Source: Paracoccaceae bacterium (GTDB lineage: Bacteria > Pseudomonadota > Alphaproteobacteria > Rhodobacterales > Rhodobacteraceae). From it: a DNA stretch of 43,634 bases. Position 1 is the first letter of the stretch. The number at the start of each line of letters is the position of its first letter. Location of the stretch: assembly GCA_007695345.1 (NCBI GenBank), contig REDZ01000077.1:1-43634 (forward strand), given 5' to 3'. Shown here piece by piece: positions 1-9,773 of the stretch. Made by a program: the position numbers and the translations under genes. The notes under the pieces are model-generated. The model was not told the DNA's origin, ran no database searches, and saw only the letters and a program-made list of their open reading frames with translations.

Positions 1-742
1 CGCCACCCACTTCGGCATATTGCGTCAGGAAGGCCAGCGCATCGGTGCCGCCCTGGATCAGCGCGACAGCATCCACATCCGACGGGAACTGCGCGATGAT
101 CGACGAGAAGTCGGTCGTGTTCAGCGGCGACCACAGCTTGGTCACTTCGCCGCCCAAGGCGCAGTATTCGTGCATGAAGCCGAAGACCTGCGCATAGGGG
201 AACGCATAGTCAGCGGCCACCAGCGCGACATGGCGCGAATCCATCTCTTCATAGGCATAGGTGCCCAGGCCTGCCATCCACTGCGTCCCTTCCGTATTGA
301 AGCGGAAGAAGTTGGACGAGGGGTCGCGCAGGGTGGTGTCCGCCGCCCCGGAAGAGCCGTTGACGATGGTCTTGCCTTCAAGCGTGCGGGAATAGTCGCG
401 CAGTGCGATGCCTTCGGCGCCCGAAAGCGGGCCGATGATGATATCGACATCGTCCTGTTCGATCAGCTTGCGTGCGCGTGCCAGTGCCACTTCGGGGGTC
501 GCGTTCGAGGATTCGCGGATCCATTCGATCTCGCGTCCGCCGATTTCGTAGTCGATGGCCTCGAACGCCATTTCCATGGCGCGGTACGCATCCTGCCCGC
601 CAGTTGCAAAGGGGCCTTCCAGCGTGGTGATCGATCCGATGCGGATCGGGCCGTCATTCTGTGCGGCGGCGCTGCTTGCGGCAAAGACAGCCGCCACAGT
701 GCCCATCGCCCAGGCCAGTGTATGTCTGCGTGAAACGGACAT
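1..742 (-). CDS. Periplasmic substrate-binding protein of a branched-chain amino acid/amide ABC transporter (partial)
   Basis: The gene runs off the left edge, so only the first 247 codons are visible. The protein starts MSVSRRHTLAWAMG with a hydrophobic stretch ending near an AAA cleavage site at about residue 27, so it is exported. It continues with the Peripla_BP_6 (LivK-like) pattern: IRIGSITTLEGPFA, then an ELARAR-like helix (VALARARKLIEQDDVDIIIGP) and a conserved N-G-S-S-G region. Family knowledge: these proteins bind amino acids, urea, amides or small carboxylates in the periplasm and deliver them to LivHM-type permeases. The ATG at 742 has a GGAGG ribosome site just upstream. It lies 105 bp downstream of livM on the same strand, so it is probably the third gene of the operon. 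The ligand cannot be told from sequence. Confidence in family is high. Confidence 0.9.
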   Translation of the reverse strand, partial: MSVSRRHTLAWAMGTVAAVFAASSAAAQNDGPIRIGSITTLEGPFATGGQDAYRAMEMAFEAIDYEIGGREIEWIRESSNATPEVALARARKLIEQDDVDIIIGPLSGAEGIALRDYSRTLEGKTIVNGSSGAADTTLRDPSSNFFRFNTEGTQWMAGLGTYAYEEMDSRHVALVAADYAFPYAQVFGFMHEYCALGGEVTKLWSPLNTTDFSSIIAQFPSDVDAVALIQGGTDALAFLTQYAEVGG

Positions 743-847
743 GAGATTTTCCTCCATGTTGTGCCGGGTATCCTCCACCCCGGCGGTGATGTCTCAGACC
801 CTTGGATCAGCAGGAAAGGCGGTCGGGTCTTTGTGCCGCCTCCGTCC

Positions 848-1855
848 TCAGAGCAGCTCCTCTTTCGGGGCAGGTTTGCCCGGCCCCTTGCCAAAGGCGT
901 TCAGCAGCCGCTTGCCTGCGCCCCAGACGCCGTCGGGCGACAAGAGGACAATGGCAAGGAACACAAGGCCGATCAGCGTGTTGAACCGGTCATGCCCGAT
1001 GATGGATGACGCGAATGTATCCATGACCACATAGATCAGCGCCCCGATGAACGCCCCCAGCGGGTGGCCCAGACCGCCGATCACGGCCATGATCAGCACA
1101 CCGACCGTGGCCCATAGCCCGATGGAACTGGGCGTGATGCCGATATTGTAGAAGGTGATCAGAACACCGCCCCATCCGGCAATGAACCCCGCCAGCGCAA
1201 AGGATGCGATCCGGTGCAGCCCGACATGAAAGCCGATGGCCGCCGTGCGCCGATCCGAGTCGCGGATCGCCTGCAGCACCAGCCCGAACGGCGTGCGCAC
1301 GACATAGAGCACGAGCAGATACATCAGCACGGCCACGATCAGCGAGATGTAGTAGAACACCATCGGCGTGCGGAAAGGCATGCCCATGATCTCGGGGCCG
1401 ACAATGTTGCGGATCCCCTCATACCCGCGGAACCAGGTGATGTTGGACTGCGCAAACAGGCTGAACCCGACCGCCAGCGCCAGCGTGATCATCAGCAGGT
1501 AGATTTCGCGCGTGTTGACCGCGATCATCCCGACAATCGCGCCTGCGATGGTCGCGGCAATCACCGCCAGCGGAATGGCTGCGCCATAGGGCATGGCCAG
1601 CGGGCCCAGCGGGATGGCCGTCGGTGCCATTATCGCGACGGTATAGCCCGCCACACCGGCCACCATGGTCTGCGCCAGCGATACAAAGCCGCCATAATGC
1701 GCCAGAAAGGTCAGCGACAATGCGACCACGCCGTAAACCAGCGCCCGCCCGAAGATATTGACCAGCCAGAAATTCGGCAGCAGCAGCGGCAGGGCCAGCA
1801 GGATCGCGATACCGGCCACCGTCATCATCCATTGGCGCGAGGTCATCATGATCAT
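848..1855 (-). CDS. livM: LivM-type inner-membrane permease
   Basis: This 335-residue protein is very hydrophobic and carries the LivM pattern: an N-terminal membrane segment, then LVYGVVALSLTFLAHYGG, the family's usual 'sleeping' region before SLAQTMVAGVAGY, and a C-terminal GGLGHPLGAFIGALI stretch matching the permease coupling loop. It is one half of the heteromeric pore that moves the ligand of the neighbouring binding protein. The frame is open further upstream, but that part is antisense-quality sequence inside livH. The chosen ATG at 1855 overlaps the livH TGA as ATGA and has GGGGAGGAAG eight bases upstream. This implies translational coupling with livH. No ATP-binding livG/livF genes are in view; they may lie beyond the left edge. 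Confidence 0.93.
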   Translation of the reverse strand: MIMMTSRQWMMTVAGIAILLALPLLLPNFWLVNIFGRALVYGVVALSLTFLAHYGGFVSLAQTMVAGVAGYTVAIMAPTAIPLGPLAMPYGAAIPLAVIAATIAGAIVGMIAVNTREIYLLMITLALAVGFSLFAQSNITWFRGYEGIRNIVGPEIMGMPFRTPMVFYYISLIVAVLMYLLVLYVVRTPFGLVLQAIRDSDRRTAAIGFHVGLHRIASFALAGFIAGWGGVLITFYNIGITPSSIGLWATVGVLIMAVIGGLGHPLGAFIGALIYVVMDTFASSIIGHDRFNTLIGLVFLAIVLLSPDGVWGAGKRLLNAFGKGPGKPAPKEELL

Positions 1856-2745
1856 GTCGGCTTCCTCCCCAGCAGGCCCTGCGGCCAGACGGCCAGCACT
1901 GCCGCCATGATCACGAAGGTCAGGATCACCGAATAGGTCGGGAACAACACCTGCCCCCATTGCTCGGCCAGCCCGATCAGCAGCGCCCCCAGCGCTGTCC
2001 CGCCGATGGACCCCATGCCCCCCACGATCACCACAACAAGTGACATCAGAAGGAAGCGCACATCGACACCCAGCGACATGGGCTGCGCTGTCGCCCCGAT
2101 CACACCGCCCAGCCCCGCAAGGGCCGCGCCAAGCGCAAAGACGGTTGCGGCAACAAGCGGCACATTGATCCCGCAGGCCGCCAACATCTGCCGGTCATCG
2201 ACCCCGGCGCGCACGATGATCCCCAGTTTGGTCTTGTTCAGCAGCAGCCACAACGCGATGCCGACAGCGATTGCCAACACGACCTGAAACAGGCGAAACG
2301 CGGGGTAGCGCCCTATGATCGGCAGCTCAACCGGGCCAAACAGCATCTGTGGCGCGAAAAAGCGGAAAGGGTTGCCGCCGAAGATGGCAAGAAGCTGGTC
2401 GGCGATGATGATGGACAGACCGATTGTCACCAGTGCCTGGCGCAATTCCTGCCCCTGCATCCAACCCAGCAGGACCACCTGCATGAACAGCCCGACAACC
2501 GCCGCAGCCAGCACCCCGGCCACGATCCCGACCAGCCAGGCCTGCGACGACCAGGTCGCCGAAGCATAGATCGGGTCATACACCGCGAAGCCGACATAGG
2601 CGCCCACCATGTAAAGTGACCCATGCGCCATGTTGACGGTCCGCATCAGACCGAAGATCAGCGAGAACCCGCTGGCAACAATAAAGTATAGCGCTGCCAG
2701 CGTCAGCCCGTTCAGGGTGACGTTCAAAAAGAACTGCAGAGACAC
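1852..2745 (-). CDS. livH: LivH-type inner-membrane permease
   Basis: The protein has 297 residues and about eight hydrophobic segments. It shows the LivH hallmark SLIFGLMRTVNMAHGSLYM near the N terminus and VVIVGGMGSIGGTALGAL near the C terminus, the loop that contacts the ATPase. It pairs with LivM to form the channel. A GTG start at 2745 is preferred over the upstream start at 2913, because GAGGAGGAAAAC precedes it and the length then fits the family (about 290). The residues upstream of it look non-homologous. It is the first gene of the minus-strand transporter operon and is divergent from the TIM-barrel regulator genes, sharing about 138 bp of control region with them. Confidence 0.93.
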   Translation of the reverse strand: MSLQFFLNVTLNGLTLAALYFIVASGFSLIFGLMRTVNMAHGSLYMVGAYVGFAVYDPIYASATWSSQAWLVGIVAGVLAAAVVGLFMQVVLLGWMQGQELRQALVTIGLSIIIADQLLAIFGGNPFRFFAPQMLFGPVELPIIGRYPAFRLFQVVLAIAVGIALWLLLNKTKLGIIVRAGVDDRQMLAACGINVPLVAATVFALGAALAGLGGVIGATAQPMSLGVDVRFLLMSLVVVIVGGMGSIGGTALGALLIGLAEQWGQVLFPTYSVILTFVIMAAVLAVWPQGLLGRKPT

Positions 2746-2883
2746 GTTTTCCTCCTCGACGCGCCCGAAAGCCTGATGCGGCTCCTCCCTCGGGACGGCG
2801 GCGATCCATTGGTCTTGTTCAGGGCATATTGACGGGTCGTGAAACGGGTTGCCACATCCAAATCGAACCGGTATTGGGTAAAA

Positions 2884-3606
2884 ATGAGTAACCCACCTGT
2901 TCCGGATCAGCACGCCCGCCAGACCGAACTTCTGATCGCCGCACAGCCTCGGGCGCAGGCCGGCACCGCCGAATCGCCAGAGCGCCAGATCCTCGCGCCG
3001 TGGATGGACCTCTTGCCTGCGAACCAGCGCGATCTGCTGTCGCTCCTGCCGGTTGCGGATGTGAACGGGGCGTTGTTTGCGGCCCTTGGCGGGCTGGAGC
3101 AGGATGTGACCGCCCCTGCCCTGCCAGATGCCGCCCGGCCCGGCACGATTGCGGGGCTGCTATGCGTCGATCCCTTTCTGCGGGTGCATGATGTCCTGCG
3201 CCTGCTCGGGGCCGCGGGCATTTCCGCGATCGCGAATTTCCCGACAATTCAGGTTGTTGATGGCGCGACCGCGCGGGTATTCGACAGCGCCGATCTTGGG
3301 GTGAAGCGCGAATTTCGCATTCTGGCGCAGTTTGCGCGTGCAGGCGTCGCGATCACCGGCTTTGCCACAACGGACGACGCAGCCGAGCGCCTGCTGGAGA
3401 TCGGCGTCAGTGACCTGGTGTTCCACCCCGGCCTCGCGTCAAGCGACTGGCGCGCGCGCGCGGTCGCCGCGCGACAGGCCGAGGACTGCCTGCGCACGCT
3501 CCGGCCCCGCTGCCAGATCCCGCTGCGCCTGTTCTGCCCCGATGCGTTCGGCACCGAGCTTGACGCGGCGCGCGCGCTTGCGGACGGGCTGGTGCGCTAT
3601 GCCTGA
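2884..3606 (+). CDS. Short TIM-barrel signal protein, PEP_hydrolase-like (PF09370) paralog
   Basis: The 240-residue protein from 2884 aligns by eye with part of the barrel of the next gene. LLCVDPFLRVHDVLRLLG matches SCFDPMTDPEQLVRQAR, IANFPTIQVVDG matches VTNFPSSIHFDG, and DLGVKREFRILAQFARAG matches GLGFAREARMLALAREAG. The family is, as I recall it, the TIM-barrel signal-transduction/PEP-hydrolase-like domain found as a sensor in some sigma-54 activators. Relative to the neighbour it lacks the first barrel strands (GGAIGVGMTAEAAVRGGAD) and the glycine-rich C-terminal strand GGPIINPDDM. It may therefore be a non-catalytic or complementing half. A GTG at 2839 is in frame; the ATG at 2884 is preferred. 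Its TGA overlaps the next ATG by eight bases. The function is inferred, not shown. Confidence 0.7.
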   Translation: MSNPPVPDQHARQTELLIAAQPRAQAGTAESPERQILAPWMDLLPANQRDLLSLLPVADVNGALFAALGGLEQDVTAPALPDAARPGTIAGLLCVDPFLRVHDVLRLLGAAGISAIANFPTIQVVDGATARVFDSADLGVKREFRILAQFARAGVAITGFATTDDAAERLLEIGVSDLVFHPGLASSDWRARAVAARQAEDCLRTLRPRCQIPLRLFCPDAFGTELDAARALADGLVRYA

Positions 3607-5395
3607 TCGCGGCCCAACACCCCAAGTGTCGGCCGTCACTGGTGCCAGAAGTCATGCGTTGCAGGAACTGGTGCAGAAACGCGCGCAGGGCAGTGCGACC
3701 CTGCTGGTGGGCGGGGCCATCGGTGTGGGCATGACCGCCGAAGCCGCTGTCCGGGGCGGTGCCGATTTCCTGCTGGCGTTGAATGCGGGCCGGTTCCGTG
3801 TGATGGGCGCGGCCTCTCTCGCGGCGCTATTGCCGCTGAACAATTCCAACCGCTTTACCGACAGTTTCGCCCGTCGCGAGATTCTGGACCGCGTGTCGGT
3901 CCCGGTTCTGTTCGGCGCAAGCTGCTTTGATCCGATGACCGATCCCGAACAGCTTGTGCGTCAGGCGCGCGCGGTCGGTTATCATGGCGTGACGAATTTC
4001 CCCTCATCCATCCATTTCGACGGCCAGTTCCGCAAACGGCTGGAGGAGGCCGGGCTGGGGTTTGCGCGCGAGGCGCGGATGCTGGCACTGGCGCGCGAGG
4101 CCGGGCTGATGACCTTCGGCTACGCCAAGACCCGCAGCGAGATTGCGCATCTGATCGAAGCGCGGGTGGACATGATCTGCCTGAATTTCGGCTGGAACGC
4201 GGGCGGGGTTCAGGCCGTGGCGCAAAGTTTCACCATTGCCGAGGCCGCAGACCGCGCGCGGCGCATCTTCTCGATCGTGCGGAGCGGCGCGCCCGACACG
4301 CTGTGCTTTGTCGAAGGCGGGCCGATCATCAACCCCGATGACATGTTCCGCGTCTGTGACGAGGCGCGCGCGGACGGCTATGTCGGCGGCTCGACGCTTG
4401 ACCGGATGCCGCTGGAAATGTCGGTCACGGAACGGACATCGGCCTTCAAGGCGTTCGGGGTATTGAAACAGGCCAACACGAAGCAGTCGCGTGAATTGGC
4501 GCGGGCCGCCCGGATTGCCGGGATCGTGGGGCAATCCGAGTTCGTGCTGGCCATCCTTGAACAGGTCACGCGGCTGGCCGCGACCGATATTGCAGCGCTG
4601 ATCAGTGGCGAGCCGGGGCTGGGGCGCGGGGCGGTGGCGCGCGCGTTGCATCCGCTGTCGGGGCGCACTGGCCCCCTGCTGACCCTGCGCGCCGCCAACC
4701 CCGAGGCCAGCCCGGAGGCAACCCTGTTCGGCGACGGTCCGCGAAAGCAGGGATTTCTGAGCAGGCCTGACAGCACGGCCGTGATCGAGAATGCCGAGAT
4801 GCTGTCGCCCGATCTGCAGGCCCGGCTGGCCGACTGGCTGGAGCAAGAGGCGCAGCGCGGCGCAGATACCAGCAAGACGGCGACAGCCCCCCCCACACGC
4901 GCGCGGCTGGTCCTTGTCTGCACCGCGGCCGCGCTGGAACGGGGCGCGCTGGTCCCTGCCCTGTCGCGCCGCCTTCAGGCAGGCCGGATCGACGTTCCGC
5001 CCCTGCGCGAACGCCCCGAAGATGTGCCCGCGCTGGCCCGTCACCGGCTGGAGGTTCTGGGGCGCGGCAAGCAGATCTCGGCGGACGGTTATCGCTTGCT
5101 GCTGGCCCATGACTGGCCGGGCAACACACCGGAACTGCGCTCTGTCATCGACCGGGCCGCGCTGAACAGCGAACAGGACACCATCGGATCGGCCCAGATA
5201 TCGGATGCGATCGGGCACGCCACCAAACCGGGCATGGCCGGGTCCGAGGCCACGCCGCAAGCTGTCGGTGAACGCGACTGGCTGGTGGATGCGCTGCGTC
5301 GGAACCGCTTTCGGCGCGGGGATACAGCCGCCTATCTGGGGATATCGCGCAAGACGCTTTACAACAAGATGCGGCGCTTCGGGCTGCTGGAATAG
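3599..5395 (+). CDS. TIM-barrel sensor fused to degenerate NtrC-type AAA+ domain and Fis-type HTH
   Basis: The protein has 598 residues and three parts. Residues about 20-285 form a complete PEP_hydrolase/TIM-barrel domain (GGAIGVGMTAEAAVRGGAD, TNFPSS, FGYAKT, NFGWNAGG, FVEGGPI). Residues about 305-530 resemble the sigma-54 activator AAA+ domain but are degraded. The Walker A region reads GEPGLGRG without the lysine, the LFG box runs straight into the Walker B region with no GAFTGA loop, and Walker B reads TAVIENAEM instead of a DE pair. The arginine-finger region is also shortened; PPLRERPEDV and WPGN remain. Residues about 572-598 form a Fis-type HTH (GDTAAYLGISRKTLYNKMRRFGLL). It is probably a DNA-binding regulator that does not remodel sigma-54 polymerase. 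The ATG at 3599 lies inside the previous gene's end, implying coupling. Confidence 0.85.
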   Translation: MPDRGPTPQVSAVTGARSHALQELVQKRAQGSATLLVGGAIGVGMTAEAAVRGGADFLLALNAGRFRVMGAASLAALLPLNNSNRFTDSFARREILDRVSVPVLFGASCFDPMTDPEQLVRQARAVGYHGVTNFPSSIHFDGQFRKRLEEAGLGFAREARMLALAREAGLMTFGYAKTRSEIAHLIEARVDMICLNFGWNAGGVQAVAQSFTIAEAADRARRIFSIVRSGAPDTLCFVEGGPIINPDDMFRVCDEARADGYVGGSTLDRMPLEMSVTERTSAFKAFGVLKQANTKQSRELARAARIAGIVGQSEFVLAILEQVTRLAATDIAALISGEPGLGRGAVARALHPLSGRTGPLLTLRAANPEASPEATLFGDGPRKQGFLSRPDSTAVIENAEMLSPDLQARLADWLEQEAQRGADTSKTATAPPTRARLVLVCTAAALERGALVPALSRRLQAGRIDVPPLRERPEDVPALARHRLEVLGRGKQISADGYRLLLAHDWPGNTPELRSVIDRAALNSEQDTIGSAQISDAIGHATKPGMAGSEATPQAVGERDWLVDALRRNRFRRGDTAAYLGISRKTLYNKMRRFGLLE

Positions 5396-5554: not shown

Positions 5555-7234
5555 CTACCGGTTCATGGCACGGCTGAGGATGATGACAGGCAGGATACCC
5601 ACGGCAACGATCAGCAGCGCCGAAGTCGAGGCTTCTTCCAGCCGCCCGTCCTGTGCCAGCCGGAAGGTGCGGATGGCAAGTGTGTCAAAGTTGAAGGGCC
5701 GCAGGATGATGGTCGCAGGCAATTCCTTCATCACATCGGCAAAGACGAAGATCGCCGCGGCCAGCACACCCCGTCGCAAGAGTGGCACATGCACGCGCAT
5801 CAGCACGCCGGATGGCCCCTCACCAAGATTGCGCGCGGCGTCGTCCATACTGGGCGGGATACGCTGAAAGGCCGTATCGACGGTTTTCAGGGCCACGGCC
5901 AGATACCGGACCACATAGGCAAATAGCAGTGCGACAATCGTGCCGCTGAGCAAGAGACCGGTCGAGATGCCGAAATGCGCCCGCATGAAACTGTCAACCG
6001 TGTTGTCGAAATAGCCCAACGGGACCAGCACGCCCACAGCGATCACGGCGCCGGGCATGGCATAGCCCATAGAGGCCGCCTGCATCGCACCGCTGATCGC
6101 CATGCCGCCTTGCTGGCGCCGCGCGTAGCTGAGGAATATGGCAAGGCAGATCAGGATGAGCGCGGCCATCCCGGCCAGGGTGACACTATTGCGGATGAAG
6201 GCAAAGAAGCGCGGCCCCCAGAACGGGTCGCCCGCGATGATCGACAGGCGCAGCAATTCGCCTGCCGGCAACAGGAAGCCCAGCAGGACCGGCACAGCGC
6301 AGATCACGGCCGCCAGCGTTGCCTGTCCGCGCGCAAGCGGCATGCGCTTGAGTGCGCGCGACCGTCCGCCGCGATTTGTGTCAAAGCGCCGGTTGCCGCG
6401 GATCACGCGCTCGATCAGAAACGCCGTGGCCACGAAACAGACCAGCAGCGCGGCAAGCTGCGAGGCTGCGACGGGAGAGCCGCGTCCGAACCAGGTGCGG
6501 AAAATCCCCGTGGTCATGGTCTGCACGCCCAGATGGACCATTGCGCCATATTCGGCCAGCGTTTCCATGGCCACGAAAGCGGCGCCTGCGGCAATCGCAG
6601 GCCAGGCCATGGGCAGCGCGACAGACCGGAACGCGCGCGCGCGGCTGTAGCCAAGTGCGCGGGCCGAATCCATCATGTCCTGCGACTGACTGAGGAAAGC
6701 CGCGCGCGAGAGCAGATAGACATACGGGTAAAGCACCAGCGCCATCAGCATGATGGCGCCGGGCAGCGAGGCCATCTGAGGGAACCAGTAGTCGCCACGC
6801 CCCCAGCCGAACATTTCGCGCAGCCATGTCTGGACCGGCCCCCAATAGCTGAGCCGGTCGAAATAGACATAGGCGATCACATAGGCGGGCATCGCCATGG
6901 GCAGCATCAGCGCCCATTCAAAAATGCGCCGACCCGGAAAATCATAGGCCGCAACCAGCCATCCTGTCGTCACCCCGATGAGTGTGGCGATGGTCAAGAC
7001 ACCTGCCACCATGATCAGCGAATTCTGCACATAAAGCGGCAGTACTGTTTCTGCGATCTGTGCCCAGATCCCGTCCGAGGACACGAAGACCCGGCTGAGC
7101 ACTGTCATGATCGGCAACAGGATCACGGCGATGATCAGGACCGCAACACTGGTCCACGGCGATGGGCGCCACCTTGCGGATCTGGTGGATGCCGGATTTA
7201 CCGGGTGCGGCTGTGGGTCCGATGTGGTGGTCAT
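5555..7234 (-). CDS. fbpB: Fe(III) ABC transporter permease, fused two-domain FbpB type
   Basis: The 559-residue protein has about twelve hydrophobic segments. Two BPD-type permease cores each carry an EAA-like loop: MDSARALGYSRARAFRSVAL in the first half and MDDAARNLGEGPSGVLMRVH in the second. That length and duplication match FbpB/SfuB, which makes the whole inner-membrane channel for Fe(III) from a periplasmic ferric-binding protein. The ATG at 7234 starts MTTTSDPQPHP. The reading frame is open to 8431, but that extension is antisense to fbpA and is rejected. The gene is divergent from fbpA and shares a 174-bp control region containing a TGA-N9-TCA palindrome. Its separation from fbpA-fbpC onto the other strand is less common than a single fbpABC operon. 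Confidence 0.93.
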   Translation of the reverse strand: MTTTSDPQPHPVNPASTRSARWRPSPWTSVAVLIIAVILLPIMTVLSRVFVSSDGIWAQIAETVLPLYVQNSLIMVAGVLTIATLIGVTTGWLVAAYDFPGRRIFEWALMLPMAMPAYVIAYVYFDRLSYWGPVQTWLREMFGWGRGDYWFPQMASLPGAIMLMALVLYPYVYLLSRAAFLSQSQDMMDSARALGYSRARAFRSVALPMAWPAIAAGAAFVAMETLAEYGAMVHLGVQTMTTGIFRTWFGRGSPVAASQLAALLVCFVATAFLIERVIRGNRRFDTNRGGRSRALKRMPLARGQATLAAVICAVPVLLGFLLPAGELLRLSIIAGDPFWGPRFFAFIRNSVTLAGMAALILICLAIFLSYARRQQGGMAISGAMQAASMGYAMPGAVIAVGVLVPLGYFDNTVDSFMRAHFGISTGLLLSGTIVALLFAYVVRYLAVALKTVDTAFQRIPPSMDDAARNLGEGPSGVLMRVHVPLLRRGVLAAAIFVFADVMKELPATIILRPFNFDTLAIRTFRLAQDGRLEEASTSALLIVAVGILPVIILSRAMNR

Positions 7235-7275
7235 GATCTGCTTTCGAAAACCGTCGGTTTTTTCCTCTACGAATT

Positions 7276-7294
7276 GTTGAGCATTCTTGTCAAC
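7276..7294. promoter_or_regulatory. Candidate iron-responsive operator (TGA-N9-TCA) between fbpB and fbpA
   Basis: A perfect inverted repeat GTTGA-N9-TCAAC sits midway between divergent fbpB and fbpA. TGA-N9-TCA is the known pattern of RirA boxes and the Iron-Rhodo-box of alphaproteobacteria. On the minus strand the site contains TTGACA, which could be the -35 element for fbpB. A second TGA-N9-TCA site sits before hemP. The assignment is inference from pattern and position. Confidence 0.55.
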
Positions 7295-7408
7295 CATTCG
7301 GAAATGCGTTAGCTCCTCCGACAGGCAGGTATCCCCTGCCCTGATAGCCAACCCAGCGGGCGTGCTGCGCCCCAGGCAGGCAAGACACACTTGAAAAGGA
7401 GTCTTCCC

Positions 7409-8419
7409 ATGTTTCGAGTCGCAGCTGTCTCGACCCTGGCGCTGAGCGTCGCGCTTCCAGCCTTTGCAGATGAGGTCAATCTGTTCTCGTCGCGCCACTA
7501 TGACACCGATTATGCCATCTTCGAGGCTTTCACCGAGGCGACAGGGATCACGGTGAACCTGATCGAAGCCTCTGGCGATGAACTTGTCGCCCGGATCGAA
7601 GCCGAGGGCGTGAACAGCCCCGCCGATGTGTTCTGGACTGTTGATGCAGGCCGCCTGCATATGGCCGTCGAGCGTGATCTGTTCCAGCCTGTGCAAAGCG
7701 ACGTGCTGGAAGAGCGGGTGCCCGCTGACATGCGCCACCCTGACGGTCTGTTCTTCGGCGTGACCACACGCGCCCGCGTGATCTATTACAATGTCGAAAA
7801 CGGACGCCCGGAAAATGTGAACACTTACGAAGATCTGGCTGATCCCGATCTGGGCCTGACCGTGTGCCTGCGTAGCTCCTCGAATATCTACAACCTGTCG
7901 CTGATGGCCGAGATGATCGAAGTGCATGGCGAAGAGGGGGCCGAGGACTGGGCGCGCGGCTTTCTTGACAATCTGGCACGTCAGCCGCAGGGCGGGGACA
8001 CGGACCAGATCCGCGGTGTTGCTGCTGGTGAATGCGATCTGGCCGTGGCCAACAGCTACTATTGGGGCCGGTTGCAAAGCTCGCAGAACCCTGCTGACCG
8101 CGAAGCGGCCGCGCGCGTGCTGCCCATCTTTCCCAATCAGGATGATCGGGGCACACATGTAAACATCTCGGGCATGGGCGTGCTGGCAAATGCGCCCAAC
8201 CCCGAGAATGCTGTGGCGCTGATCGAATTCATGACCTCGCCCACGGTTCAGTCGATCCTCGCAGATCAGAACAATGAATGGCCCGTGGTTGAGGGCGTGA
8301 CCATCACGGGTCCGATGCGCGACTGGGCCGAATTCACCCGCAGCGACACCAACAAGGCTGTCTATGGGTCCAATCAGGCCACAGCGATCAGCATCTGGGA
8401 CCGCGTCGGTTTCCCCTGA
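7409..8419 (+). CDS. fbpA: Ferric-iron-binding periplasmic protein
   Basis: The protein has 336 residues. It has a signal peptide (MFRVAAVSTLALSVALPAFA, cleavage about residue 20) followed by EVNLFSSRHYDTDYAIFEAF, the classic start of Fe(III)-binding proteins. VNSPADVFWTVDAGRL and the paired tyrosines at about 217-218 (NSYYWGRL) match the iron-coordinating region of the FbpA/FutA/SfuA family. It captures Fe(III) in the periplasm for FbpB/FbpC. The ATG at 7409 is chosen because AAAAGGAG lies seven bases upstream; an in-frame TTG at 7391 would lengthen the leader. It is followed by a strong hairpin and then fbpC. Regulation by iron is likely through the palindrome at 7276-7294. Confidence 0.94.
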   Translation: MFRVAAVSTLALSVALPAFADEVNLFSSRHYDTDYAIFEAFTEATGITVNLIEASGDELVARIEAEGVNSPADVFWTVDAGRLHMAVERDLFQPVQSDVLEERVPADMRHPDGLFFGVTTRARVIYYNVENGRPENVNTYEDLADPDLGLTVCLRSSSNIYNLSLMAEMIEVHGEEGAEDWARGFLDNLARQPQGGDTDQIRGVAAGECDLAVANSYYWGRLQSSQNPADREAAARVLPIFPNQDDRGTHVNISGMGVLANAPNPENAVALIEFMTSPTVQSILADQNNEWPVVEGVTITGPMRDWAEFTRSDTNKAVYGSNQATAISIWDRVGFP

Positions 8420-8442
8420 TCTGGGGTGCATCGCCTGACCAT

Positions 8443-8476
8443 ATCAGAGGCCAGCGCAGCCGCGCTGGCCTCTGAT
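8443..8476. terminator. Strong hairpin between fbpA and fbpC
   Basis: A perfect 15-bp stem (ATCAGAGGCCAGCGC and its complement) closes on a four-base loop AGCC, 23 bp after the fbpA stop. There is no T-run after it, so it may act as a partial terminator or an mRNA-stabilising stem that lets more FbpA than FbpC be made. A second, weaker stem (CTGACAC/GTGTCAG, 8534-8553) lies between it and fbpC. Confidence 0.6.
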
Positions 8477-8642
8477 CGAATGTAACAGGCGCTTGGGGTG
8501 GTCGTGTCACAGAGTTGGCGCATGCCACGGTCGCTGACACATGCTGGTGTCAGACCAGAGTGATCTTCTTGTGCGATCATGTGCGGCGTTGAAACGCAGA
8601 CCATGCAGCCACGGTCCAGGCGCAAGACACAAGGAGAATGCC

Positions 8643-9773
8643 ATGTCGCCCGGCACAAGTGCGGTCTTGTCTGCTGCGTTTTCCGAAAGCACCGATGCGC
8701 CCTCTGCGCAAACTGCCCTGCTGTCGGTATCCGGTTTGAGCAAGCGTTTCACGTCTGGTGGGACAGTTGCCGCTGACGCCCTGTCCTTTACACTGCAGGA
8801 CGGAGAAATGCTTGCACTGCTCGGGCCGTCCGGCTGCGGCAAGACGACCTGCCTGCGGATGCTCGGCGGGTTCGAGATGCCCGATGCAGGGCAGATCCTG
8901 CTGCAGGGGCAAGACATAACCCGCAGCCTGCCCGAAGAGCGCGGCATCGGGTTCGTGTTCCAGGATTATGCGCTGTTTCCGCATCTGAGCGTGCAGGAGA
9001 ATGTGAAATTCGGCCTGCGCCGCCGCACGAGGTCCGAGGCCGAGGCGCGCGCCCGCGAGATGCTGGAGATCGTGGGGCTTGGCGGGCTTGGCGCGCGCAA
9101 GCCGCATGAACTCTCTGGCGGTCAGCAGCAGCGCGTGGCACTGGCGCGCACGCTGGCGATAGCCCCGCCGCTGGTCTTGCTGGATGAACCCTTCTCCAAC
9201 CTCGATGCTGCGATGCGAGTCCAGACGCGGCAGGAGGTGCGGCACCTGCTGCAGGCCGCCGGTTCGGCCGCAATTCTGGTCACCCACGATCAGGAAGAGG
9301 CGATGGCCGTGGCGGACCGGGTTGCTGTCATGAATGACGGCAGGCTGATCCAGATCGGGACGCCCGATGATGTCTATCGCAATCCGGTATCCGAATTTGT
9401 GGCGTCCTTCATGGGGCGTTCCAACATTGTGCCGGGTGTGGCCAGGGACAATCAGGCGCAGACGGCGTTCGGCATATTGGATCTGTCGCGCCCCGCGCAG
9501 GGGGCTGTCAACCTGTCACTGCGGCCCGAACAGATCCTGCTGGATGCCGACCCTTCCAGCCCCGCCGAGATTGTCGCGCGCGAGTTTCGGGGCCATGATC
9601 AGCTTTACCGGGTGCAGGACGGCGCGCGCGAACTGGTTGTCCTGTCCGGGGCAGGCGTGAGTTTCGATGTGGGAACGCGTGTGCGCCTGCGCATTTGCGA
9701 TTGCGTGACGCCGCTGGAACCATCGAAAGCAGATCAGCGCGAATTGACAAAGTTGATAAATTCTGTCAGGTAA
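8643..9773 (+). CDS. fbpC: Fe(III) ABC transporter ATP-binding protein
   Basis: The 376-residue ATPase has Walker A GPSGCGKTT, the Q-loop FQDYALFP, signature LSGGQQQR, Walker B LVLLDEPF and switch histidine VTHDQEEA. The C-terminal part from about residue 260 (VNLSLRPEQILL) looks like a TOBE regulatory domain, as in FbpC/PotA-type proteins. It powers uptake through FbpB. The ATG at 8643 has AAGGAGAATGCC upstream; the frame is open earlier, but without a ribosome site. The gene follows fbpA on the same strand after 223 bp that hold two hairpins. The very end of the gene overlaps a TTGACA promoter element and the palindrome thought to control hemP. Confidence 0.94.
   Translation: MSPGTSAVLSAAFSESTDAPSAQTALLSVSGLSKRFTSGGTVAADALSFTLQDGEMLALLGPSGCGKTTCLRMLGGFEMPDAGQILLQGQDITRSLPEERGIGFVFQDYALFPHLSVQENVKFGLRRRTRSEAEARAREMLEIVGLGGLGARKPHELSGGQQQRVALARTLAIAPPLVLLDEPFSNLDAAMRVQTRQEVRHLLQAAGSAAILVTHDQEEAMAVADRVAVMNDGRLIQIGTPDDVYRNPVSEFVASFMGRSNIVPGVARDNQAQTAFGILDLSRPAQGAVNLSLRPEQILLDADPSSPAEIVAREFRGHDQLYRVQDGARELVVLSGAGVSFDVGTRVRLRICDCVTPLEPSKADQRELTKLINSVR
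9744..9772 (+). promoter_or_regulatory. Candidate hemP promoter with iron operator (TGA-N9-TCA)
   Basis: A perfect -35 hexamer TTGACA (9744-9749) is followed by TTGATAAATTCTGTCA. Within this, TGA (9754-9756) and TCA (9766-9768) are separated by nine bases, the same spacing as in the site before fbpA. Read in reverse, the two sites share TGACA and TCAAC. The -10 is not clear (about 9767-9774). The operator would lie between -35 and -10, consistent with repression under iron sufficiency. It lies in the last codons of fbpC. Confidence 0.5.

Follow-up and report, generated by a model that had tools for sequence, protein, structure and literature searches.

The locus raises the question of whether a short gene for a trimmed TIM barrel (gene A), lying against a longer gene that joins a related barrel to a regulator core (gene B), is a working partner of that regulator or a decaying duplicate of its sensor, and what the regulator controls. 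Both genes lie in the 43,634-nt window (the whole stretch of DNA analyzed; Table 1), in which each is open from ATG to stop. As an initial annotation had claimed, the two genes are adjacent and overlapping (8 nt, ATGCCTGA) and their barrels are related. The HMM search that it proposed recovered PF09370 in both proteins, with 58.3 bits for gene A (A residues 78–190, profile positions 73–185 of 267) and 243.9 bits for gene B (nearly the whole profile), both exceeding the Pfam gathering cut-off of 33.8 bits. No Pfam domain besides PF09370 was found in gene A. A direct alignment of the two proteins (31% over 106 aa, E = 9e-11, single comparison) indicated a likeness beyond chance. The kinship therefore held, but the motifs quoted for it did so in part: the segment given as G-L-G-x-x-R-E reads D-L-G-V-K-R-E in gene A, and that given as F-G/A-x-T is F-A-T-T in gene A, with F-G-Y-A-K-T as its counterpart in gene B. 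Gene B has the NtrC-type AAA+/Fis-type HTH architecture, with AAA_lid_14 (46.1 bits) and HTH_8 (40.0 bits) both above cut-off and a weaker Sigma54_activat match (32.2 bits). In its AlphaFold2 model (pLDDT 87, pTM 0.61), the barrel matched 2p10 and the core matched NtrC-type activators.

Table 1 Positions of the gene pair, its domains, the proposed operator and the divergent operon in the window
Feature	Position	Strand	Basis
Periplasmic binding protein (Peripla_BP_6), cut by window edge	2..778	-	
livM-like permease, open frame as listed; true start probably near 1855	848..1960	-	
livH-like permease, first gene of divergent operon	1852..2745	-	Start inferred from where relatives' LivH alignment begins
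Direct repeat TGGGTAA-AAA-TGAGTAA, proposed operator	2875..2891	+	Genus alignment, locus scans
Gene A, trimmed PF09370-type TIM barrel, 240 aa	2884..3606	+	Open frame, PF09370 match, predicted model
Gene B, PF09370 barrel + degenerate NtrC-type AAA+ + Fis-type HTH, 598 aa	3599..5395	+	
Gene B barrel (sensor-like) domain, residues 23-285	3665..4453	+	
Gene B degenerate AAA+ and lid	4523..5227	+	
Gene B HTH_8 (Fis-type) DNA-binding domain, residues 558-594	5270..5380	+	

Gene A was found in 8 of 37 genus genomes, with gene B beside it in each (in one, A was split over two contigs). Outside the genus, PF09370 surveys independent of A (draws of 295, 385, and 398 genomes) gave 13 genomes with an intact B, counted as such when its frame stayed open for at least about 570 aa and encoded all three domains (barrel, AAA+, HTH); A was nearby in all 13. 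In the class draw, A and B occurred in the same 9 of 385 genomes, our own included, and A without B was not seen among the best six or seven candidates scored per genome, a depth at which a very diverged A might escape. Two broken B copies (G321 contig 11 and G883 contig 144) had no A within the stretch read. When B's barrel was used as the query in named genomes, 76 of 80 loci (the best 80 of 261 confirmed) had A together with B. Three of the other four loci (L106, L143, and L145) are cut by contig ends at the expected place of A, and the fourth (L166) keeps B and the DNA element described below and has no A. A seeming absence of A from rhizobial loci was an artefact of a 5-kb limit, and a wider search found A there. 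Neither A nor B was present in any of 13 canonical-only loci of 14.9–19.0 kb chosen from the surveys; 29 further canonical loci (3.2–3.8 kb, two of them from pair-bearing genomes) were too short to tell and were not counted.

Gene order was far less constant than gene content. In the 76 named loci, A and B were convergent in 53, divergent in 17 (about 2–4 kb apart), and on one strand in 6. The occurrence of all three arrangements indicates that the association outlives changes in gene order, and the predominance of convergent loci led us to drop the overlap as a key feature; it is a local, incidental trait. The survey of relatives suggested by the initial annotation thus bore out the two-gene association but not the overlapping order.

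The AlphaFold2 model of gene A (mean pLDDT 90, pTM 0.88) has eight strands, and its best PDB matches were the 2p10 chains (TM-score 0.64–0.68 on the query, 16–17% identity). In this predicted model, gene A looks trimmed in the first loop and helix and past the last strand, but not halved. A half-barrel reading (no β1, β2, or β8; profile coverage 68–237 of 286 in 2p10) was dropped in view of the eight predicted strands. Among 69 positions invariant in at least 95% of 40 canonical rows, B kept 36 and A kept 7 in at least 80% of rows (44 rows each), so that neither has the residue set of the canonical PF09370 PEP_hydrolase-like enzyme; the conserved enzyme positions around β1, β2, β7, and β8 are absent from gene A. 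Because most of the invariant enzyme positions have been lost, gene A is best read as a probably non-enzymatic barrel.

Gene A is under purifying selection, the sign of function that the initial annotation had asked for in the short gene. The dN/dS values (Nei-Gojobori) were 0.15–0.36 for A (21 pairs), 0.06–0.21 for B, and 0.05–0.09 for the canonical barrel; some A frames (272, 266, and 250 aa) start upstream of the likely start, which may inflate the values. In a tree of 128 barrel rows, A (44), B (44), and canonical (40) sequences each formed one clade (support 100/100, 99/94, and 97/82, respectively), with many A rows long-branched and placements inside A unsure. Gene A was the fastest evolving of the three (mean tree distance 5.8 vs. 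1.8 for B and 1.0 for the enzyme). Distances of A and B were correlated (0.74; partial correlation 0.69 with the canonical barrel removed) in 37 of the 44 loci, from which three long-branch loci and loci without a canonical gene had been left out. The association beyond close kin and the purifying selection together argue that A and B form a real, old, conserved regulatory module. The proposal that the short gene is a working partner is thereby supported: its frame is open, and its association with B extends far beyond the genus through several gene orders.

In the genus of the window, the pair is divergent from a liv/UPF0261/PEP_hydrolase operon with the order livH-livM-SBP-livG-livF-UPF0261-PEP_hydrolase. 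Beyond the genes seen in the window, the operon of genus relatives goes on with two ABC ATPases, UPF0261, the canonical PEP_hydrolase-like barrel, and an SRPBCC protein. In our own genome, the ATPase, UPF0261, PEP_hydrolase, and SRPBCC genes are on contig C89, consistent with this contig adjoining the left end of the window.

A direct repeat, TGGGTAA-N3-TGGGTAA, was located between the pair and this operon. Its copy in the window overlaps the start codon of gene A and precedes the inferred livH start by about 129 nt, and the genus alignment of the A–livH intergenic region has TGGGTAAAAATGGGTAA at the start of A. In 76 of 93 loci, a set that counts at least three genomes twice, A's strand carried 12 or more of the 14 fixed bases close to where A begins; the best of 20 shuffles per locus reached 10 to 13 of 14. 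The 17 loci below 12/14 included most of those in which B has an intact GAFTGA loop, where the element was mostly weak. With one mismatch allowed, a scan of the 37 genus genomes gave 14 matches: eight were at the A start, in 8 of 8 pair-bearing genomes, and six were elsewhere, and all five exact matches were at the A start. A reversed-pattern control gave 17 matches in the same genomes, more than the pattern itself, and therefore the genus evidence is the position of the matches and not their number. The window holds a single copy with up to two mismatches, as did 5 of 100 window shuffles.

Further copies with at least 12 of 14 bases were more frequent than expected (49 in 1.77 Mb of loci vs. 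about 11 under equal base frequencies). Among copies with at least 13 of 14 bases, mapped in 22 loci, many preceded a UPF0261, livH, or binding-protein gene by 13–233 bp and mostly ran on its opposite strand. A few faced a different gene, such as that for an esterase (L062) or an amidase (L158), or no gene. Among GAFTGA-intact loci, two such repeats appear, by eye, to face each other in L128 and in L134. No simple palindrome between A and livH recurred throughout the genus. A direct repeat would be an atypical site for a Fis-type HTH dimer.

From these patterns we propose, with moderate confidence in the model as a whole, that gene B is a ligand-responsive, sigma-54-independent regulator, descended from an NtrC-type activator, with gene A as its co-sensor. 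Gene B would bind the repeats between A and livH through its Fis-type HTH. At the repeat, it would act on the divergent liv-UPF0261-PEP_hydrolase operon and, because the site overlaps the start of A, also on its own A–B pair. Of the two proteins, B alone was found to have a DNA-binding domain, and the element marks operon promoters, which makes B the likely binder. Its sensor barrel is a paralog of the PEP_hydrolase-like barrel encoded in the controlled operon, and for this reason its probable signal is a related metabolite. Gene A would be a conserved small barrel that works with B, most likely by pairing with B's barrel to supply a second sensor subunit. Such pairing is the simplest role that we infer for A, because A is tied to B in evolution and not by gene order, and its fold is kept without the enzyme positions. 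Binding of B to the element, the direction of control, and the A–B contact are, likewise, what we infer from comparison of sequences. Against the model stand the fast evolution of A, the variable adjacency and orientation of the two genes, L166 with its site but no A, the reversed-pattern and shuffle controls, the 17 loci below 12/14, the direct-repeat form of the site, and a scan of 2600–3000 that gave no sigma-70-like promoter.

The main rival to the co-sensor role is that gene A acts as an antagonist or ligand buffer, which would bind the signal or B's barrel and hold B inactive. A site at or before the start of A would allow feedback on A apart from B where the genes are convergent, and the small number of enzyme positions kept by A agrees with such a role. 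However, sequence does not separate an antagonist from a co-sensor, and the near-constant co-occurrence of A with B fits both; we consider the antagonist unlikely, yet worth weighing.

Less probable is that the TGGGTAA repeat serves gene A as a promoter or in translation initiation and is not an operator. Its place at or before the A start on A's strand in most loci would suit that reading, as would its middle, TAAAAT, which resembles a −10 box. The copies away from A, however, face UPF0261, livH, and binding-protein genes, and the element persists in L166, which has no A. The 239 kb of the 13 canonical-only loci yielded a single match at 12/14, with nothing at 13/14 or better. We prefer to read the repeat as an operator and regard the promoter or start reading as improbable.

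It is likewise improbable, and slightly more so, that gene A serves the UPF0261/PEP_hydrolase pathway as a metabolic accessory and merely sits beside a regulator. Gene A belongs to the superfamily of the enzyme and often directly adjoins liv or UPF0261 genes, but it was absent from all 13 canonical loci without B, was not seen without B among the best candidates scored in each of the 385 class genomes, and lacks the conserved positions around four of the barrel strands. That gene A arose in this lineage as a copy of B's barrel and is now decaying, the other reading of the initial annotation, is highly improbable: A is fast-evolving and trimmed, but it forms a clade separate from the B barrels, is under purifying selection, and is carried by nearly all relatives examined.

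The least probable reading, to which we give next to no weight, is that gene B is still a sigma-54 activator: the NtrC-type AAA+ lid and Fis-type HTH are kept and some named relatives have GAFTGA, but gene B itself has lost the motifs and its genome gave no RpoN match. The GAFTGA loop is deleted in gene B. At the Walker A, Walker B, and arginine-finger positions, gene B reads GEPGLGRG, TAVIEN, and LVPALSRRL, and its L128 counterparts read GENGTGKE, SLMLDE, and FREDLLYRL; the Walker A lysine, the Walker B acids, and the arginine-finger stretch are all lost from gene B. The RpoN DNA-binding domain (PF04552) gave no match in six of the eight pair-bearing genus genomes: our own, 91% complete, and five more, of which three are 100% complete. 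Scored against the −24/−12 consensus, the region reached at best 6/11, under the shuffle mean of 7.6. In this genome, neither an RpoN match nor a −24/−12 promoter at the target was found, and a sigma-54 role would require RpoN to be encoded in the 9% that is missing. Because GAFTGA and both Walker motifs are lost and RpoN was not found, gene B is not a sigma-54 activator in this genome, and the initial description of the PF09370 barrel as the sensor of such an activator fails here.

Elsewhere, that description may suit a minority of loci. GAFTGA was intact in 8 of 56 aligned B proteins and in 9 of the 80 named loci kept as the best among 261. The intact copies came from Billgrantia, Aquisalimonas, an Ectothiorhodospiraceae MAG, Ancylobacter, and one Chelativorans, and the nine loci represent about five lineages. 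All nine had a −24/−12 score of at least 9/11, at a similar position facing the divergent operon. A score of at least 10/11 was reached in eight of the nine vs. 2 of the other 83 loci, and exactly 9/11 in 21 of the 83 loci without intact GAFTGA (at least 10/11 vs. intact GAFTGA, Fisher P = 4e-9, a statistic that ignores kinship among 92 loci in which some genomes are counted twice: L053/L095, L058/L093, and L060 with L096). Outside the genus, 20 pair-bearing genomes drawn from the 80 named ones were examined for the RpoN domain, and all 20 have it, including 14 whose B is without GAFTGA. In the tree, the GAFTGA-intact copies were nested among degraded ones inside the B clade, a pattern that requires either several independent losses or a later exchange of the AAA+ domain.

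We tentatively suggest that these loci represent an apparently undescribed class of two-subunit sensors, in which a full barrel on an NtrC-type core and a separate, trimmed, non-enzymatic sister would make up a heteromeric receptor, both kin to the enzyme of the controlled operon. Such a class would have originated under sigma-54 and shifted repeatedly to sigma-54 independence, losing the activator motifs and the −24/−12 promoter together and keeping the partner. Our confidence in this reading, somewhat short of an even chance, was lowered slightly because the intact copies nest among degraded ones.

With a candidate DNA site, a candidate target operon, and a taxonomic range, this unnamed gene pair becomes a regulatory module open to testing. 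It also offers a natural series for an enhancer-binding protein leaving sigma-54, from loci with GAFTGA and a −24/−12-like promoter, through GAFTGA-less loci with RpoN (14 of 14), to a genus without an RpoN match (6 of 8). The enzyme family concerned is UPF0261 with PF09370, a combination that plant Tm-1-like proteins carry as a fusion; the portion of the open-licence PMC literature searched gave no description of its role. Papers on PF09370, or on phosphoenolpyruvate hydrolase with sigma-54, were not found in open-licence PMC, nor was a description of the A–B module in that part of it retrieved with the terms UPF0261, COG5564, COG5441, Mll9387, 2P10, and TIM-barrel signal transduction.

Among known systems, enhancer-binding proteins without GAFTGA that are able to work without sigma-54 are described in sections of PMC3162934 and PMC10274813. 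Examples (Rhodobacter capsulatus and Caulobacter NtrC, HupR, TyrR, DhaR, and VpsR) resemble gene B in having an NtrC-type AAA+ domain plus an HTH, in the loss of GAFTGA, and in control away from sigma-54 (PMC3162934, PMC10274813). Gene B differs from them in its PEP_hydrolase-like sensor barrel and in the further loss of the Walker A lysine and Walker B acids, and the A–B system differs in its constant small-barrel companion and direct-repeat DNA site. Within the literature portion sampled, the module looks like an apparently undescribed variant of these GAFTGA-less proteins, with an unusual sensor, companion, and DNA site.

The PF09370 PEP_hydrolase-like (TBST) barrels, such as PDB 2p10 (Mll9387) and the C-terminal half of plant Tm-1-like proteins, have the superfamily and fold common to A and B. 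UPF0261 is described as genomically associated with TBST proteins in a part of PMC5028733, in the main text of which the words sigma, HTH, and AAA do not occur. Compared with those barrels, one barrel here is the sensor of a regulator and the other is its trimmed companion. An enhancer-binding protein with a separately encoded sensory partner is known in NifA with NifL; 9qq6 was among the structure matches found. B and A resemble that pair in this division of labor between an enhancer-binding protein and a separately encoded partner, but differ from it in that A is a paralog of B's own sensor domain and both belong to the family of the enzyme encoded in the neighboring operon.

In the aligned loci, a weakly conserved second element of the CAAGATGG or CCAG type preceded the first half-site of the TGGGTAA-N3-TGGGTAA direct repeat by approximately 20 bp. 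This repeat, whose copy in the window lies at 2875-2891, is the proposed operator that overlaps the start of gene A (the trimmed PF09370-type barrel). The repeat also preceded SBP_bac_1 binding-protein genes in four loci from relatives (L147, L149, L161, and L133), and these upstream copies suggest that the regulon is wider in those lineages.

One Pararhodobacter MAG carried gene A and gene B (the latter encoding the barrel, AAA+, and HTH fusion) on the same strand but separated by approximately 6 kb (L092, 3077-3799 and 9869-11740). Bradyrhizobium sp. 141 retained both the repeat and gene B (L166, 3579 and 3992), and gene A was not found on this 12.6 kb contig. No neighboring gene A was found beside the broken gene B copies of G321 (contig 11) and G883 (contig 144). 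Immediately to the right of gene B in the window, frames similar to an iron-type ABC transporter were present (5555-9773), recognized by eye except for the ATPase.

Broken gene B copies in relatives and iron-type ABC transporter-like frames in the window
Feature	Location	Strand	Genome and contig	Basis
Broken gene B copy	L064 6535-7892		G321 contig 11	
Broken gene B copy	L082 4805-5937		G883 contig 144	
Permease-like frame	within window 5555-9773	-		by eye
Binding protein-like frame	window 7391-8419			by eye
ATPase-like frame	window 8541-9773			ABC ATPase profile match

Near a contig start, G407 carried a second UPF0261 and PEP_hydrolase set, accompanied by a partial PF09370 frame (L075, 246-2814). 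Some canonical PEP_hydrolase neighborhoods that lacked the gene A-gene B pair (L067 and L069-L071) contained genes that grouped with a flotillin-like, a molybdopterin-dehydrogenase-like, and an SRPBCC protein. These neighbors offer a hint at the pathway involved.
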